IMG/VR virus record: IMGVR_UViG_3300011400_000002 | Location: 1-41,245 of that record | From: a virus | Strand: one strand, 5' to 3' | DNA length: 41,245 nucleotides | In this document: one piece after another, positions 21,537-41,245 of the stretch | How positions within the stretch are numbered: the stretch's first letter is position 1 | Layout of the letters: every line of letters begins with the position of its first letter | Program-made: the position numbers and the translations under genes | Notes under the pieces: model-generated | The model's database searches: none | Told to the model about the DNA's origin: nothing | Seen by the model: only the letters and a program-made list of their open reading frames with translations

Positions 21537-22181
21537 TTAATCCCCTGTAATTGCCTTTCTCAAGGACACATGTGTAATATTACTCACAAGGTGCTTTCTG
21601 GTAGGATGACGCAGTTTTTTCATTCCTCTCAAATAAATCTGTCGAACTCTTTCCTTATCAACCCCTACAATCTCGCCAATTCCTTTCAAAGTCTTTTTTT
21701 TCTGCCCTAGCAGACCTAGCCTATGCACGATAATAAGACTTTCCCTAGGAAGTAACGTATTTAATAGATCTTCCACAGATTTATCAGGATCAACAGATTT
21801 TTCTTCTTCTAATGCCTTATCATATGGATTTACCTTTCTTCGCATTTCATAGCCATCGCAAGTCAAGTCAAGATGTATTTTCTTACTTATCCCTTCTTCT
21901 TTCATTTCTGAAATCATATTTTCGATGTTATTTAAACGGTTTCCAATATATTTTATTTCACCAAGAATCTGGACGAGGTCTAAGTTTTTTATTTCTTCTT
22001 TTATCGATTCTAGTTTTTCAGTAATTTGTCTTACTACATGAGCCAGACCACGGTCATCAATGACCAAAGGATGCTTTACTATATTTAGAAGCAACTCAAT
22101 GGAATGCCAATATTGTCCTAGGTTATCCATAATTCTTTTAAGATGCTCAATCATCTTAAGTTCTATGGGCGTTTCAGTCAT
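21537..22181 (-). CDS. Sigma-70 region 4-like regulator, 214 aa
   Basis: Residues 137-198 resemble sigma region 4: LLNTLLPRESLIIVHRLGL, then TLKGIGEIVGVDKERVRQIY and LRGMKKLRHPTR, compared with the RpoD pattern LEEVGKQFDVTRERIRQIE...LRKLRHPSR. This helix-turn-helix reads -35 boxes. The N-terminal 135 residues are helical coiled coil, with no region 2 (-10 reader), so it is not a whole sigma factor. It may redirect host polymerase to late genes, or bind DNA at packaging. It overlaps the upstream gene by 4 bases, in the terminase-portal gap. Confidence 0.75.
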   Translation of the reverse strand: MTETPIELKMIEHLKRIMDNLGQYWHSIELLLNIVKHPLVIDDRGLAHVVRQITEKLESIKEEIKNLDLVQILGEIKYIGNRLNNIENMISEMKEEGISKKIHLDLTCDGYEMRRKVNPYDKALEEEKSVDPDKSVEDLLNTLLPRESLIIVHRLGLLGQKKKTLKGIGEIVGVDKERVRQIYLRGMKKLRHPTRKHLVSNITHVSLRKAITGD

Positions 22182-26740: not shown

Positions 26741-26917
26741 ATGAAACAAGATGCGAAAATCAATGATGTCTTTTATTTAGAAGAAAACTTTAGTGAGTGG
26801 TCTGAGATGGGCTACTCACTTAGCAATTACCTATTTCAACTGCTAAAATTAGAACGTGAAAAGAATGAATATTTGGAACGGAGGTTATCTTGGAACAAGG
26901 ATCGAGTGAGTGGTTAG
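26741..26917 (+). CDS. Small acidic helical protein, 58 aa
   Basis: ATG 26741 with AGAAGGAT. Acidic then helical (NFSEWSEMGYSLSNYLFQLL, LEREKNEYLERRLSW). It overlaps the start of the exonuclease gene by 28 bases, and its GGAGG codons form the exonuclease ribosome site, so it helps set exonuclease expression. Function unknown. Confidence 0.6.
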   Translation: MKQDAKINDVFYLEENFSEWSEMGYSLSNYLFQLLKLEREKNEYLERRLSWNKDRVSG

Positions 26918-27738
26918 AATACAGAAGAAATAAGATAGGCGCATCAGATTGCCCAGTAATCATGAATGTAAGCCCTTGGAAGACACAATACCAACTCTGG
27001 CTAGAGAAGTGCGGGGCAGTAGAGCCACACGTCAATAATAGCATGCGTAGAGGTTCGCAATTAGAAGCGGAAGCCAGGCAGTCTTTCATCGAATATATAG
27101 GCATAGAAGTTTTTCCATCTGTTGAAGTTCATCGTGATCACAGCTGGATGATTGCAAGCCTCGATGGTAGAGATTTAGAGAAGAAGACTATCGTGGAAAT
27201 CAAATGTCCTGGAAAAGATGACCATAATCTTGCTTTAGAAGGTAAGGTACCGGATAAATACTACCCACAGCTTCAGCATCAAATGGAAGTTTGTAATGTC
27301 GATAGGATGTATTATTACAGCTATGACGGTAAAAATGGCGTGTGTGTCGAAATTGAGCGCAACAATTCATATGTTAAGAAAATGATCGAGGCAGAATTGA
27401 AGTTTTATGATTGCATGGTTTCCTTTTATCCTCCGGAATTAGGTGATGGTGACTTTGTTGAACGGAACGATGAGGAGTGGACTACAGTCGCTCTCCAATG
27501 GCGTGATGTTAGCGAAGAATTGAAAGATCTTAAGATTAAAGAAGATGATCTTAGAAGGAAGCTAATTTGGATGGCGGGGGAAAAGGATACGAAAGGTTCT
27601 GGAGTAACATTGAATCGAATAGTGCGGAAAGGAATGGTAGACTATAAAAAAATAGATCAGCTCCAGGGTCTGAATCTGGAGCCTTTCCGTAAACCTAATA
27701 TAATCTGCTGGACTATAAGACCTGAAGACTATCTATAA
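26890..27738 (+). CDS. YqaJ/lambda-exo-type recombination exonuclease, 282 aa
   Basis: Resects DNA ends to make single strands for the annealing protein. TTG 26890 follows GGAGG within the upstream gene. Motifs of the YqaJ family: QGSSEWLEYRRNKIGASD at the N-terminus, RRGSQLEAEARQSF, then the catalytic IASLDG and TIVEIKCPG (D...ExK of the PD-(D/E)XK fold), and YYPQLQHQMEV. About 280 residues is usual. Together with ERF upstream this is a typical two-component phage recombination pair. The C-terminal helical part (ELKDLKIKEDDLRRKL) is also usual. Confidence 0.9.
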   Translation: MEQGSSEWLEYRRNKIGASDCPVIMNVSPWKTQYQLWLEKCGAVEPHVNNSMRRGSQLEAEARQSFIEYIGIEVFPSVEVHRDHSWMIASLDGRDLEKKTIVEIKCPGKDDHNLALEGKVPDKYYPQLQHQMEVCNVDRMYYYSYDGKNGVCVEIERNNSYVKKMIEAELKFYDCMVSFYPPELGDGDFVERNDEEWTTVALQWRDVSEELKDLKIKEDDLRRKLIWMAGEKDTKGSGVTLNRIVRKGMVDYKKIDQLQGLNLEPFRKPNIICWTIRPEDYL

Positions 27739-27911
27739 ATCACTTGCGTAAAGGTGCGAAAGTGATTATAAGATTTAAGACTTAGGTGTCTGCTTATGGG
27801 GAGCAGACACCCTACTAGACAACAACTGGCCGGATTCGAACCCAACGCCTATCTCTACTTTATGGGATGGGCGTAATTTTTATCAACGTTTAATCTTATA
27901 AAGGAATTCCT
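27739..27911 (+). ncRNA. Candidate structured leader RNA/attenuator before the replication gene
   Basis: The 173-base gap is packed with pairing. AATCACTT/AAGTGATT (27738-27745 with 27760-27767). GGTGTCTGCT/AGCAGACACC, a perfect 10-bp stem (27785-27811). An 11-bp stem with G-U pairs, ACGCCTATCTC/GGGATGGGCGT (27845-27874), followed by AATTTTT, an intrinsic terminator. A perfect 10-bp helix, TTATAAGATT (27766-27775) with AATCTTATAA (27892-27901), encloses the last two and its 3' arm abuts the AAAGGA ribosome site of the next gene. GGATTCGAACC at 27832-27842 is a tRNA T-arm string on the other strand. A cis-acting switch controlling the gene at 27912 is inferred. Confidence 0.5.
27845..27881 (+). 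terminator. Intrinsic terminator in the leader
   Basis: An 11-bp stem ACGCCTATCTC/GGGATGGGCGT with loop TACTTTAT, then AATTTTT. It points with the forward operon and lies just before the replication gene, so read-through or antitermination is needed for downstream genes. This supports an attenuator role. Confidence 0.6.
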
Positions 27912-28736
27912 ATGGCAATTTTCCGATCTGTTCATAATAAAAATTACACTTCAGTAAATAATTTTATATGCAAAGATAATCGCTTGTCTTGGAAAGCCAA
28001 AGGAATTTGGTTATATGCTTTCAGTCGACCAGATGATTGGGTATTTTACACAAGCGATTTAGAAAAACATGCTACTGATGGAAGAGACTCCGTGAGAAGA
28101 GGCCTTAGAGAATTAGAAGAATATGGGTATTTAAGAAGAGTTCAGAAAAGAGATGCGGATGGATCATTTACCTCAATTGAATGGCATTTTTTTGAAACCC
28201 CCCAAGAATTAAAGAATTCTTTACCGGAAACGGATTTCCCGTCGACGGATAAAGCGTCGCCGGATAATCGCCCCCTACTAAGTACTGATTGTTTACTAAG
28301 TACTGAAAGAGACCAACAACAGGCTGCGCCGGCTGCTGCTGTTATTTTTGATTGTCTGAAAGAAATTCAGATTCCTTCATCTGAGAAAGAATGGCTGATG
28401 AAGAATTATTCTGAAGGAGAGATTGAAGAAGCAATTGCTTGGACTGAAACTCAGGATGACATCAAGTCTTTGGCTGCTTCGATTAAGTGGGCATGCAAGA
28501 ATAAACCTAAGAAGCCCAAGAAATCGCTATCTATACACGAAGAACTCTCACTACACTTCAAGAATGGCGAATATTACAATGATGCCGAATGCATATTGAA
28601 TTCCGATGTAATATCTTTTCAAAGAGGAATGAAGCACTTCTGGATAAATTTAGATGAATTTTTCTCATGGAAGAAATTAGAAGAAATCTTTATTGCTTTT
28701 GGGATAAAATTCTGTAGAGAAAAAGGACTTTCGTGA
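27912..28736 (+). CDS. HTH replication/replisome-organiser protein, 274 aa
   Basis: ATG 27912 behind AAAGGA. Residues 1-90 form a winged helix domain: NYTSVNNFICKDNRLSWKAKG, then RPDDWVFYTSDLEKHATDG and GRDSVRRGLRELEEYGYLRR, the HTH_36-like pattern of phage and plasmid initiators. A variable linker (residues 95-140) carries an acidic and Ala/Gln-rich stretch (DQQQAAPAAA). The C-terminal helical part (SEKEWLMKNYSEGEIEEAI) resembles the tail of DnaD-like or replisome-organiser proteins. It probably binds the phage origin and loads host replication machinery, since no phage helicase or polymerase is seen. GTGA overlap with rusA. Confidence 0.75.
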   Translation: MAIFRSVHNKNYTSVNNFICKDNRLSWKAKGIWLYAFSRPDDWVFYTSDLEKHATDGRDSVRRGLRELEEYGYLRRVQKRDADGSFTSIEWHFFETPQELKNSLPETDFPSTDKASPDNRPLLSTDCLLSTERDQQQAAPAAAVIFDCLKEIQIPSSEKEWLMKNYSEGEIEEAIAWTETQDDIKSLAASIKWACKNKPKKPKKSLSIHEELSLHFKNGEYYNDAECILNSDVISFQRGMKHFWINLDEFFSWKKLEEIFIAFGIKFCREKGLS

Positions 28737-29326
28737 AAATAATACTGCCAGGAGATCCAATAGCAAAGCAAAGGCCTCGGTTCTTGCGTACAGGACGCAC
28801 ATACGACGTACAGGATGCGATAAAAATAAGCACCCGCAGGGATATGGCTTACATATACCGAGAACCTCCCATTTCAGGGGCTTTGAGTGTTTCTTTGGAA
28901 TTCTGCTTCGAGCCCCCTAAGCGAATGCGTCATGATCTTAGAAATCTCATGCTATGGAATATCGAGCCTCATAATCGCCGTCCCGATTTTGATAATCTTG
29001 AGAAATTTTATTGCGATGCTGGTAACTGTATTCTATGGTGTGATGATTCTCAAATCGTTAAGTGTCACACAGTTAAAAAATGGTCAAATATATCTTGTAC
29101 AATTATTGAATTCAATGAGATAAACAATTCTCATATGGACAAAAAAATTGAAAAAGTTTTTCGTACTTTCTCTCCGGATGAGTTCGATTCTTTGCTCTCT
29201 GATATGGGCTCTATTGAAACCCTTAATATCGGCACGGATTGTTCGAAAGAATTTTTGGCCGCCGGATTGGTAGACTTTTCTAATAAATGGGCGAAAAAAC
29301 TTTGTAAAATTCTAAACGAGGGTTAA
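28733..29326 (+). CDS. rusA: RusA-family Holliday junction resolvase with C-terminal extension, 197 aa
   Basis: Cuts four-way junctions from recombination or replication. GTG 28733 overlaps the previous stop (GTGA). The PGDPIAKQRPR start, EPHNRRPDFDNLEKFYCDA (D85, D87, K91, D95) and WCDDSQIV (D104-D105) match RusA acidic-site motifs. RusA proteins end near 120-130 residues; here about 65 more follow (IEKVFRTFSPDEFDSLLSD, FSNKWAKKLCKIL), a helical extension of unknown use. Confidence 0.85.
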   Translation: MKIILPGDPIAKQRPRFLRTGRTYDVQDAIKISTRRDMAYIYREPPISGALSVSLEFCFEPPKRMRHDLRNLMLWNIEPHNRRPDFDNLEKFYCDAGNCILWCDDSQIVKCHTVKKWSNISCTIIEFNEINNSHMDKKIEKVFRTFSPDEFDSLLSDMGSIETLNIGTDCSKEFLAAGLVDFSNKWAKKLCKILNEG

Positions 29327-30618: not shown

Positions 30619-30642
30619 TGGGACTATTTTTAAATAGTCCCA
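30619..30642 (-). terminator. Intrinsic terminator of the accessory operon
   Basis: TGGGACTATTT and AAATAGTCCCA form a perfect 11-bp inverted repeat with a 2-base centre. In the minus-strand RNA the stem is followed by AUUUUUC. Two more small hairpins (30650-30678 GAGAC/GTCTC and 30683-30698 GGGCA/TGCCC) lie just upstream, between this and the 89-aa gene. Confidence 0.75.
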
Positions 30643-30996: not shown

Positions 30997-31233
30997 TTAT
31001 TGCGCGTCATCTAATGCAGGGAGTAAAGGTAATGGAATCCAGTGAGTGACTTCACCATAATATTCATCTTTAATCCATTCTTTTTTTGGCCAAAAAAAAG
31101 AAACTCGACCATCTGTCAATGACAATGTATAGTCATGAACTTCACAAAGAATAGGAATGCCATTTATCAAACAAACTATAACGCTATCATCTTTAGAAGG
31201 TAACTGATCTCTAACGCTAATCCATTCATTCAT
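30997..31233 (-). CDS. DUF551-family protein copy A, 78 aa
   Basis: Opens MNEWISVRDQLPSKDDSV and closes YYGEVTHWIPLPLLP, the WISV-x2-xLP...THWxPLP frame of DUF551 proteins, which are common and uncharacterised in phages. The middle (CLINGIPILCEVHDYTLSLT then SFFWPKKEWIKDEYYGEVTHW) is nearly identical to copy B at 36030-36257, and 68 bases of DNA match exactly (31037-31104). The start overlaps the metallophosphoesterase stop by 4 bases. Confidence 0.75.
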   Translation of the reverse strand: MNEWISVRDQLPSKDDSVIVCLINGIPILCEVHDYTLSLTDGRVSFFWPKKEWIKDEYYGEVTHWIPLPLLPALDDAQ

Positions 31234-32836: not shown

Positions 32837-33370
32837 TTAATTAGAATTCTTTACAGACTGATTCACATCGAACACAAATATTCCTTTGCGACGCCACATA
32901 TTGCAACATTTTTCTGAAGCATCAAATACGAAATCAACTGTACGATTTTCTCGTATAGTTTCATCAAGCCATCGTTCTTTTAACTGATCATCAGATGTAA
33001 AGTCTCCGATCGGACGCATTTTTAATTGATGTGATTCAAAACAAAGTAAATGTTTATCTAACCATTCTTCAGTCTTTTTTCTAACAGATTCACATCTGAT
33101 AGACCATATTTTATGTAACCCCATATTGCCTAAGGATATTTCATTATTCCAAAGAGCTATTATCGGCTCAATCGGCTTATCCTGATCGCAAGCCTCATAG
33201 AATGATTTCCAATCGGGTTTCCATTTAACATTTAATTGAATTTGACCATCTTCATAACCACGAAATTCATTTCCGTTGTATCTGCAAAAGTTTTCATTTT
33301 TTTCAGGATCAACAAAATGCCGTCTATGCTCACAATCTGCAAGCGTTCCATCTAAATTAAATATGATCAT
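32837..33370 (-). CDS. HAD phosphatase homologue (Pnkp 3'-phosphatase type), nucleophile lost, 177 aa
   Basis: Starts ATG 33370. The pattern IIFNLDGTLADCEHRRHFV then DWKSFYEACDQDKPI, SIRCESVRKKTEEWL and LKMRPIGDFTSDDQLKERWL follows the phosphatase half of T4 PseT-like proteins. HAD motif I is DxDGT with the first Asp as nucleophile; here it is N5 (AAT), and motif IV reads FVFDASEK where FDDR is usual. Such changes should abolish or weaken 3'-phosphatase activity. It may be a binding-only relative or decaying gene. Confidence 0.8.
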   Translation of the reverse strand: MIIFNLDGTLADCEHRRHFVDPEKNENFCRYNGNEFRGYEDGQIQLNVKWKPDWKSFYEACDQDKPIEPIIALWNNEISLGNMGLHKIWSIRCESVRKKTEEWLDKHLLCFESHQLKMRPIGDFTSDDQLKERWLDETIRENRTVDFVFDASEKCCNMWRRKGIFVFDVNQSVKNSN

Positions 33371-34718: not shown

Positions 34719-35042
34719 TCATTTAGCTGATTTTTTCCAATAATTTCTTATATATTCTATAAAATCATCATAAGTTTCTGGATCAAACATTTGCAATTCA
34801 TCTATATCAACAGGATTTTTCATATTCTTGGTAATAATGTGCATTTTTCCTGTAAATCCAATTGGTGGGATTATATCAGCCCATAAATGTGGTGCATCAT
34901 AAAATGTATATTCTGAATCTACAAATGGAATTGGAACCCATAAATCATCAAATCTCTGAACCACATAAATATCACCTTCCTTAAAATATAGGATTTTTTT
35001 TCCTTGAGGTGGCAATTCGTCTTTAGGATCTATCCATTTCAT
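34719..35042 (-). CDS. DUF551-like divergent protein, 107 aa
   Basis: MKWIDPKDELPPQGKKILYFKE resembles the WISV-KDRLP-x-GK start of DUF551 proteins, but the C-terminal THWMPLP block is missing, replaced by an acidic tail (DPETYDDFIEYIRNYW). Start ATG 35042 shares one base with the recombinase stop (TAATG). Probably an old member of the family array found at 36-37 kb. Confidence 0.5.
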   Translation of the reverse strand: MKWIDPKDELPPQGKKILYFKEGDIYVVQRFDDLWVPIPFVDSEYTFYDAPHLWADIIPPIGFTGKMHIITKNMKNPVDIDELQMFDPETYDDFIEYIRNYWKKSAK

Positions 35043-35620
35043 TATAAAACTTTTTCCTGTTTTTCAAGCGCATTCTTATATGTATAAATTGTCTTTCTAG
35101 AAACACCCAACTCTTTTGCAATTTTATCTTTAGAATCGCTACTTTTTAGACGATCTTTCAAGATTTCAATTTTTTCTGAATTCAACTTCTTTACTCCCCC
35201 TTTGTATTTCCCTGCCTTCTTTGCTAAGTCAATAGCTTCACGTTGACGCTCTCTAATTATAGAAAGTTCGAATTCTGCTACTGCTCCCAGCATAACTAGT
35301 AACAATCTAGATATTGAAGAATCATCACCACTAAATTTAAGATTTTCTTTTACAAAAAATACTGTGGCTTTTTTATAAGTAATCTCATCTATTGTTTTAA
35401 GAAGATCTTTAACATTCCTAGACATTCGATCCATTGAATGAACAAATATAATGTCATCCTCTCGAATATATTCCATCATTAATTTAAATTTTGGACGGTT
35501 AGTGTCTTTCCCTGATGAGTAATCTATAAATGATTTGTCTACTTTTAAACCTTCCAATTGTCTATCGGGATTCTGATCTATTGAGCTAACCCTAATATAA
35601 GCTATTTTCTTTCCTGTCAT
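35042..35620 (-). CDS. Serine recombinase (resolvase/invertase), 192 aa
   Basis: ATG 35620 behind CAGGATCAAG is preferred to ATG 35653, since it places the nucleophile at the usual distance: KKIAYIRVSS (Ser12). Further family marks: QNPDRQLEGL, FVHSMDRMSRNVKDLL, AVAEFELSIIRERQREAI (long E helix), and a C-terminal HTH (DKIAKELGVSRKTIYTY). Size fits resolvases and invertases rather than large integrases. It may invert a phage segment or resolve dimers. The 107 bases upstream are A/T-rich with short repeats and could contain its site. Confidence 0.85.
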   Translation of the reverse strand: MTGKKIAYIRVSSIDQNPDRQLEGLKVDKSFIDYSSGKDTNRPKFKLMMEYIREDDIIFVHSMDRMSRNVKDLLKTIDEITYKKATVFFVKENLKFSGDDSSISRLLLVMLGAVAEFELSIIRERQREAIDLAKKAGKYKGGVKKLNSEKIEILKDRLKSSDSKDKIAKELGVSRKTIYTYKNALEKQEKVL

Positions 35621-35760
35621 CTTGATCCTGAACTTTTTTTGTGAAAAGAGCATCTTAGATTAGGGGTTACATTTTGTAAAGATGAAAAAAAACAACTCTG
35701 TTTACATTTATGTTAGGCAATTTAAAAGTATGTGAAACGGGTGTACCCTATTGTGACACG

Positions 35761-36015: not shown

Positions 36016-36029
36016 TCTCTGAACTATTT

Positions 36030-36257
36030 CTATTCCTCAAATTTAGGCTGTTTCGGTAACGGCATCCAGTGAGTGACTTCACCATAATATTCATCTTTAA
36101 TCCATTCTTTTTTTGGCCAAAAAAAAGAAACACGATTATTTGTCAATGACAATGTGGCGTCATGAACTTCACAAAGAATAGGAATGCCATTTATCAAACA
36201 AACTATAATTTTTTCATTTTCAGAGGGTGATCTTTCTTTAACTCTAATCCATTCCAT
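36030..36257 (-). CDS. DUF551-family protein copy B, 75 aa
   Basis: MEWIRVKERSPSENEKIIVCL... ends GEVTHWMPLPKQP. Nearly the same as copy A at 30997-31233: the block CLINGIPILCEVHD and SFFWPKKEWIKDEYYGEVTHW is shared, with 68 bases exact (36064-36131) and about 50 more exact further on. This is a recent duplicate inside the same operon. Ribosome site AAGGATTAAG. Confidence 0.75.
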   Translation of the reverse strand: MEWIRVKERSPSENEKIIVCLINGIPILCEVHDATLSLTNNRVSFFWPKKEWIKDEYYGEVTHWMPLPKQPKFEE

Positions 36258-36259
36258 TC

Positions 36260-36496
36260 TTAATCCTTTTTAGGCGGAAAAGGCTTATCTAGATTTGACG
36301 CATCAACCCTTTTCCACCATTTTGTCCATCTGCACTTATCATCTTCAAACGAATACCATCCTTCGGAGGGATCTGTTTTATACCTTTCATCATTGTCATA
36401 TGTTCGACATCCGAGCAATACTTCACGATCTCTCCAATAAATCCAAACAACCTCAAAAGGTTGAGGCAAATTATCTTTAACGCTAATCCATTCCAT
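36260..36496 (-). CDS. DUF551-family protein copy C, 78 aa
   Basis: ATG 36496 (preferred over TTG 36502), with the GGATTGAG ribosome site embedded in the preceding gene's stop. MEWISVKDNLPQPFEVVWIYW starts as a DUF551 protein but ends WWKRVDASNLDKPFPPKKD instead of THWMPLP, so the C-terminus is divergent. It shares the start string ATGGAATGGATTAGCGTTA with its neighbours. Confidence 0.7.
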   Translation of the reverse strand: MEWISVKDNLPQPFEVVWIYWRDREVLLGCRTYDNDERYKTDPSEGWYSFEDDKCRWTKWWKRVDASNLDKPFPPKKD

Positions 36497-36498
36497 AC

Positions 36499-36726
36499 TC
36501 AATCCTTCAGTGGTGAGGGTAAAGGCATCCAGTGTGTAACATTATCCAGTCTTTTATGATCGCCAGAAGACTCCCACCAATTCGATGTTTTTTGACCATA
36601 AAAACTAATCCACGCCATTGCATCGGCATAATAAAATGCGTCTTTTTCATCATTATTCTGCATTCTGACACGAAATTTTCCTGCAAAGCACTTTGGAAGA
36701 TGATTATCAACGCTAATCCACTCCAT
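36499..36726 (-). CDS. DUF551-family protein copy D, 75 aa
   Basis: ATG 36726 (an upstream ATG at 36795 lies within the previous gene and has no ribosome site). MEWISVDNHLPKCFAGKFRV ... RLDNVTHWMPLPSPLKD shows both ends of the DUF551 pattern, with an aromatic middle (FYYADAMAWISFYGQKTSN). The spacing to neighbours is 2 bases (GGATTAAGA-ATG). Confidence 0.75.
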   Translation of the reverse strand: MEWISVDNHLPKCFAGKFRVRMQNNDEKDAFYYADAMAWISFYGQKTSNWWESSGDHKRLDNVTHWMPLPSPLKD

Positions 36727-36728
36727 TC

Positions 36729-36944
36729 TTAATCCTCTGGTAGGGTTGGCAATGGCATCCAGTGTGTTGGGATTGACAAAACCGAATAAGGACATCCATA
36801 CTCATTATTTTTTTTACGTTTGTGATCTGGATGAGAAGCCATCCATACATTTTTAAAATAAGAAGCAACCCATTGTCTTTCACCGTCACTCACTAAAACA
36901 TCTTCGAATTCTTTGGGAGGTTTACTAACGCTTATCCATTCCAT
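36729..36944 (-). CDS. DUF551-family protein copy E, 71 aa
   Basis: ATG 36944 within GGATTGAAG-ATG. MEWISVSKPPKEFEDVLVSD ... SIPTHWMPLPTLPED. The same ends as copies A-D but different middle (GERQWVASYFKNVWMASHPD). This completes a tandem run of four, B-E, in about 900 bases. Confidence 0.75.
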   Translation of the reverse strand: MEWISVSKPPKEFEDVLVSDGERQWVASYFKNVWMASHPDHKRKKNNEYGCPYSVLSIPTHWMPLPTLPED

Positions 36945-36946
36945 CT

Positions 36947-37144
36947 TCAATCCTTAAATACCTTTTTAAAAATATTAGGCATTGGCATGGAAATTAATTT
37001 TTTATAATTTTCCAGTCTCATTTCTTTAGAAATGCCTAATTCTGGATCGCATCCCGGACATGCTTTTTTTCCATCGACATATCTATCAATATACATATCT
37101 GCCCCACATGAACATTTTTGAGCACAAATAGTTGTTGTTTTCAT
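36947..37144 (-). CDS. Zinc-ribbon protein, 65 aa
   Basis: ATG 37144 with AAAGGATTGAG is preferred to ATG 37219. The AQKCSCGADMYIDRYVDGKKACPGCDPE part gives CxC-x-x...CxxC, a ribbon. It ends KKLISMPMPNIFKKVFKD. The 128 bases upstream (37145-37272) hold no good gene but include a frame ending MECPELPKD, which looks like the last piece of a lost DUF551 copy. Confidence 0.55.
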   Translation of the reverse strand: MKTTTICAQKCSCGADMYIDRYVDGKKACPGCDPELGISKEMRLENYKKLISMPMPNIFKKVFKD

Positions 37145-41002: not shown

Positions 41003-41245
41003 TTATGCTACATAAGCGTAAAGCCATACGGTTCCATTCGAATATACCGTCGCCCCTGAATAAGCGGCAGATAACACCTTAGTTGCTGCTGCTGCTCCCC
41101 CACCGACTAAGTTAGTACCACCACCATTGATAGTAATATTATTCACAGCTGCTGAACCCACTCCATCGCGAATTACAAATGTACGACCTGCCAAGGCATT
41201 TGCTGCTGGTAGAGTAACTTGCAAAACTCCTGCGCTTGTATCGCA
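41003..41245 (-). CDS. Tail fibre protein, C-terminal end (continues from base 1)
   Basis: The 3' part of the 850-residue fibre gene listed at 1-2433, with the 123-base overlap repeated. It holds the terminal domain VTLPAANALAGRTFVIRDG, then NNITINGGGTNLVGGG and SGATVYSNGTVWLYAYVA. Frames agree across the join. An internal TTG (41224) is not a real start. Confidence 0.85.
   Translation of the reverse strand, partial: CDTSAGVLQVTLPAANALAGRTFVIRDGVGSAAVNNITINGGGTNLVGGGAAAATKVLSAAYSGATVYSNGTVWLYAYVA

Follow-up and report, generated by a model that had tools for sequence, protein, structure and literature searches.

What purpose is served by a strongly folded stretch of RNA that lies directly ahead of the replication initiator gene of an uncultured phage? 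The window, by which we mean the whole 41,245-nucleotide stretch of IMG/VR virus record IMGVR_UViG_3300011400_000002 analysed here, is probably a complete genome of about 41 kb, circularly permuted or closed, since the first and last 123 bases of the record (1-123 and 41123-41245) are identical. Pfam and PHROG searches show that the window encodes a P22-like portal, a terminase, and, on the plus strand, a gene block in the order erf, yqaJ, rep, and rusA. The 173 bases that separate the yqaJ stop codon (27736-27738) from the rep start (27912) are most likely a spacer without coding function, dividing the recombination genes (erf and yqaJ) from the replication genes (rep and rusA). The original prediction had read this spacer as a nested-hairpin leader of riboswitch or attenuator design, closed by a long-range helix and ending in an intrinsic terminator.

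Folding the 174-nt stretch 27738-27911, we obtained -59.9 kcal/mol, compared to -36.3 ± 3.95 kcal/mol for 200 dinucleotide shuffles (z -6), none of which folded as well as the spacer (0/200). The spacer is also among the three best-folding places when both strands are scanned in 150-nt windows with GC content corrected for. Because the individual stems are located as predicted, the fold is far beyond that of the shuffles, and the scan ranks the spacer in its top three, the presence of a strongly folded RNA stretch before rep is confirmed. The prediction had also recognized no known RNA class, and this was borne out by the Rfam scan, in which no family reached gathering score anywhere in the window and only chance matches appeared at E values up to 10. 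Retrons, T-boxes, and other nested-hairpin systems were set aside: the neighbors of the spacer are yqaJ and rep, no reverse transcriptase was found among the scanned proteins, and there is no Rfam T-box match. The features of the spacer and its surroundings are collected in Table 1.

Table 1. Positions in the window of the spacer elements and of the genes and repeats around them.
Feature	Position	Strand	Basis
yqaJ, RecE-like/YqaJ exonuclease, last gene of the erf-yqaJ block	26890..27738	+	Pfam YqaJ 1.2e-27; PHROG 434 2.7e-53
P0 hairpin on the yqaJ stop codon, AATCACTT..AAGTGATT	27738..27767	+	sequence and fold
P1 5' arm, TTATAAGATT	27766..27775	+	exact inverted repeat with 27892-27901
P2 hairpin, GGTGTCTGCT-TATGGGG-AGCAGACACC	27785..27811	+	27785-27794 pairs with 27802-27811
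26-codon ORF MGSRHPTRQQLAGFEPNAYLYFMGWA, possible leader peptide	27796..27876	+	AUG in P2 loop, stop at P3 base
17-nt exact match to tRNA T-arm, GGTTCGAATCCGGCCAG	27826..27842	-	sequence search
P3 intrinsic terminator: 11-bp stem, 8-nt loop, tail AATTTTTATC	27845..27884	+	fold and terminator scan
P1 3' arm, AATCTTATAA	27892..27901	+	exact inverted repeat with 27766-27775
rep ribosome site AAGGA within palindrome AGGAATTCCT	27901..27911	+	sequence
rep, HTH_36 replication initiation protein	27912..28736	+	Pfam HTH_36 1.1e-5; PHROG 4707 replication initiation 8.2e-27
Probable replication origin inside rep: CGTCGMCGGATAA twice and TACTAAGTACTGA twice, short direct repeats	28240..28307	+	direct reading and repeat listing
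rusA Holliday junction resolvase, downstream of rep	28733..29326	+	Pfam RusA 1.3e-18

The helices differ in how far they depart from chance, as judged by inverted-repeat counts compared with those in 30 shuffles of the window. The closing helix P1 is present exactly as predicted, a perfect 10-bp pairing whose 3' arm abuts the rep ribosome site, with the Shine-Dalgarno AAGGA sharing the last P1 base. It is not unusual, because perfect 10-bp inverted repeats with a gap of 20-200 number 17 in the window and 11.2 ± 3.4 in the shuffles; P1 is thus of the kind expected by chance in an AT-rich genome. Extending the transcript upstream by the final 138 bases of yqaJ lowers the probability of P1 to about 0.28. 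P2, likewise found as the perfect 10-bp hairpin described before (11 bp counting a U.G), is unusual, since four hairpins of this type (perfect 10 bp, loop 3-10) were observed and 0.37 expected; it is not a terminator, because no T run follows its stem on the 3' side. A pseudoknot had been proposed between the UAUGGGG loop of P2 and a downstream ACCCA, and the pairing is possible as UGGG/CCCA, but at only 4 bp it carries no weight. P1 and this possible pseudoknot need not do anything. P0 is an extra hairpin beyond those of the original prediction.

P3 has the properties of an intrinsic terminator. Its arms (27845-27855 and 27864-27874) form 11 bp, including two G.U pairs and 6 GC pairs, with a hairpin energy of -17.6 kcal/mol, giving the stable, GC-rich, short-loop stem of such elements. 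The U-rich tract that follows, AAUUUUUAUC, holds 5 U in 8 and is only moderate because it starts with AA. The hairpin with U-run that had been predicted here is present and above chance, and by strength P3 ranks in the top three of the terminator-like sites of the window. The strong hairpin terminators of the plus-strand block are P3 and a site at 30619-30642, the latter lying just beyond the block end and scored on the minus strand. Because two of its pairs are G.U, P3 makes a good stem only as plus-strand RNA, and the plus strand is the coding strand for both flanking genes. The stem ends 37 nt before the rep start. We consider it probable, at roughly 0.6, that P3 is an intrinsic, probably partial, terminator that ends the erf-yqaJ unit at this distance from rep.

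If so, P3 would be the working part of the spacer. Polymerase arriving from yqaJ would make P0 and P2, two locally formed hairpins that would probably protect the 3' end of the mRNA or give it its shape; P3 would then form on its U tract and stop a share of the transcripts, and those that read through would run on into rep and rusA. Since only read-through would reach rep, initiator would be made in a smaller amount than recombinase, and partial termination would in this way set the ratio of the two gene blocks. With complete termination, rep would need a promoter of its own; the promoter scan found none on the plus strand of the spacer, where TTGCGT-N17-TATAAG (27744-27772) is a sub-threshold candidate. 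Against the terminator reading speak P2, which is unusually stable although termination does not need it, and the only moderate U tract. Most likely, this is a common type of element, a transcription stop between gene blocks, found in a new place; it likely marks a transcription boundary within what appears to be a single early operon of an uncultured phage group, splitting recombination from replication genes.

Comparison with related phages bears on which of the two flanking genes the structure goes with. A terminase scan gave 80 related-phage loci, with portals mostly 57-90% identical, and the replication block proved mosaic, the relatives' erf and yqaJ lying mostly on the strand opposite rep and rusA. 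In the nearest yqaJ relative, L007 (IMG/VR record 3300047160_018329; YqaJ 45% identical), two hairpins, the first of them small, come after the yqaJ stop and then a terminator at +82..+112 (-17.8 kcal/mol); in the present phage two hairpins likewise precede a terminator at +106..+136 (-17.6 kcal/mol). Like P3, the L007 terminator consists of a GC-rich stem and a U tract on the coding strand, soon after the last gene of the block and with extra hairpins ahead. The two differ in that the next gene here begins 37 nt past the stem, whereas the next same-strand ORF in L007 is 569 nt away, and in that P2 is unusually stable here. We did not find rep in the L007 record. A terminator likewise comes directly behind yqaJ in two further relatives, L067 and L074, and yqaJ genes with another ORF immediately next to them have none within about 200 nt. 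Because terminators follow yqaJ in L007, L067, and L074 and are missing where yqaJ lies inside an operon, the structure is apparently a feature of the end of the erf-yqaJ unit and not of rep. There are exceptions, however: the same scan detected no terminator in four relatives whose next gene is distant (L085, L069, L096, and L071). Terminators are also found just ahead of other genes in relatives, e.g., L061, L063, L076, L084, and L044.

Homologues of the leader itself were sought more widely. BLAST returned only chance pieces from 46 records (43 terminase relatives and three from other scans) and from phage and plasmid collections, with no homologous leader among them. Some 30 Rep homologues were collected by profile, and their leaders are unlike the present one. 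Rep scans gave five distant partial matches in viral contigs and none in genome contigs; ten Reps, once aligned, proved too diverse to serve as a query for scanning. The P2 stem sequence was rejected as a marker of leader homology: the same stem occurs as a terminator in AT-rich phage contigs, where the remaining leader is unrelated. The hairpin GGTGTCTGC-N4-GCAGACACC with T runs is a recurrent terminator-like element in AT-rich phage contigs (L008, L011-L018, L020-L021, and others), and its sister elements read GTGTTTGC..GCAAACAC.

A usual riboswitch or attenuator requires two mutually exclusive folds, one making and one abolishing the terminator. In the growing transcript of the spacer, P0 folds, then P2, then P3 once its second arm emerges, and prefix folding leaves the 5' arm of P3 unpaired or weakly paired before the 3' arm appears. 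Forbidding P3 takes the energy from -60.6 to -41.1 kcal/mol, a cost of 19.5 kcal/mol; the arms stay single-stranded, and among the nested folds of the RNA by itself no antiterminator or alternative helix is freed. P1 closes only after P3 and is compatible with it. With no nested pairing to compete with P3, these folds are not those of a switch. The structured spacer with a terminator before a replication gene is confirmed, while its interpretation as a riboswitch or attenuator design is not supported as a switch: there are no exclusive nested folds, and P1 forms after the terminator, does not exclude P3, and has a low probability in the extended transcript. A simple attenuator that answers to no known signal is possible. 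For the ligand-sensing riboswitch of an undescribed class that was suggested earlier, the high fold stability, a terminator that could serve as expression platform, and the lack of an Rfam match speak in favor, but besides the missing alternative fold, no search made returned a homologous leader, the initiator homologues closest to this one (identity 20-33% over alignment A2, and 38% in the best local match, L065) carry unrelated leaders, and the location beside a phage initiator gene points to no metabolite, so that we give this explanation only a very slight probability.

More generally, we regard it as improbable that the spacer is a replication-control leader whose read-through at P3, and with it the timing of initiator synthesis, depends on some signal, be it an antisense RNA, translation of the 26-codon leader, or a tRNA fragment that pairs with the 17-nt T-arm complement of the plus-strand RNA. 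Regulated read-through would make the locus a rare parallel in phages to the attenuation that controls plasmid copy number; nothing in the present evidence calls for regulation. In plasmids pT181 and pIP501, an antisense RNA forces a terminator just before rep, and in pSK41 the origin lies in the middle of rep and the rep leader is regulated (PMC5703833). An attenuator of the pT181/pIP501 type, in which antisense RNA from inside the leader would pair with P2 or the spacer, set termination at P3, and limit initiator supply, fits the order described for those plasmids, in which a structured leader and a terminator come immediately ahead of the ribosome site of the initiator gene (PMC5703833). 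Likewise, the short repeats within rep are a probable origin, or iterons, midway through the initiator gene, as in pSK41 (PMC5703833), and some phage relatives of rep are annotated as "replication initiator A family". Pfam above cut-off gives HTH_36 only for the present initiator and NCBIfam gives nothing, so the likeness to RepA_N plasmids such as pSK41 stops short of established membership in RepA_N. A 9-of-12 promoter-like site does lie on the minus strand (27886-27857), but such sites occur at chance frequency compared with shuffles of whole window halves, and a minus-strand RNA would have no terminator except a weak stem. Nor is a pre-emptor for the P3 5' arm seen, which is at most weakly paired in prefix folds, with P2 holding its own arm. 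The lack of a competing pairing, of a convincing antisense promoter or terminator, and of a rep leader promoter sets the spacer apart from pT181 and pIP501, and antisense attenuation is in our judgment unlikely. The spacer as the replication origin itself is disfavored, because the repeats are located inside rep.

The remaining candidates attach to single elements of the spacer. Control by a leader peptide, in which a ribosome on the 26-codon ORF would open P3 for polymerase or couple translation to rep, could draw on an AUG that lies within the P2 loop and has AGGTG 7 nt ahead of it, a UAA stop that overlaps the last P3 pair, and a codon score that lies between real genes and off-frame sequence, above 93% of the latter. 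That score is below about 87% of real gene pieces, an ORF this long arises in 17% of shuffled spacers, a degenerate-codon search for the peptide core matched no viral contig, and the start and its Shine-Dalgarno are locked within the 11-bp hairpin, all of which makes such control quite unlikely. The T-arm-like 17-mer, read as an attP core or tRNA relic (an attachment site or tRNA-derived element), matches GGTTCGAATCCGGCCAG exactly and occurs in 86 viral stretches, the matches listed lying for the most part in tRNA genes or in 3' ends that resemble tRNAs. Extended by 3 nt, the resulting 20-mer is found in four genomes of the genome collection, none of them at a tRNA, and the phage genome has no tRNA genes. 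Tyrosine integrase (PF00589) is absent from the window and present in only 1 of 34 related records, the recombinase that is encoded being a small serine enzyme of invertase/resolvase type (35042-35653); the T-arm motif GGTTCRAAYCC recurs in only 6 of 34 relatives, and leader BLAST finds nothing around it. An attachment site or relic is accordingly highly improbable. As functional elements, plasmid-type rep attenuation, the leader ORF, and the T-arm-like 17-mer are all weakly supported. Finally, P1 and the palindrome AGGAATTCCT could be DNA operators through which Rep or another regulator acts (autoregulation), with no role as RNA structure. Perfect dyads with the 3' arm within 32 nt of the start and a score of at least 19 precede 5 of 23 other rep genes (L065, L072, L036, L070, and L105), compared to 7.8% of 591 gene starts, but this test was devised post hoc and the enrichment is mild; moreover, the dyad sequences all differ from one another and bear no resemblance to the repeats inside rep, and P1 alone is at chance frequency. 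We consider operators unlikely and retain the partial terminator at the end of the erf-yqaJ unit as the preferred reading of the spacer.

Several other elements were observed in the relatives and in the window. Upstream of rep in L105 (minus strand, start 9907), ACTTTAATATAGG is followed by its complement CTATATTAAAG and then by a second ACTTTAATATAGG adjoining the rep start; this arrangement allows two exclusive pairings and is a better switch candidate than the present spacer. In L070 (minus strand, rep start 14998), the rep upstream region holds a 12-bp perfect dyad, CTCCTAAAAGTT/AACTTTTAGGAG, whose 3' arm contains the rep ribosome site. The window itself also encodes a polynucleotide kinase-like phosphatase (32837-33370) and a sigma-70 region 4 protein (21537-22181). 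Two 230-nt copies that are 84% identical (30998-31227 and 36025-36254) each carry a palindromic hairpin, TTCTTTTTTTGGCCAAAAAAAAGAA. On the minus strand at 36239-36955, a 30-nt unit, AAGGATTGAGTATGGAATGGATTAGCGTTA, occurs four times and spans the ribosome site and first codons (MEWISV) of adjoining small genes. At 241-1812, a 48-nt unit is repeated in 11 diverged copies, often spaced by 126-129 nt, and these probably belong to a repetitive protein that reads across the record ends.
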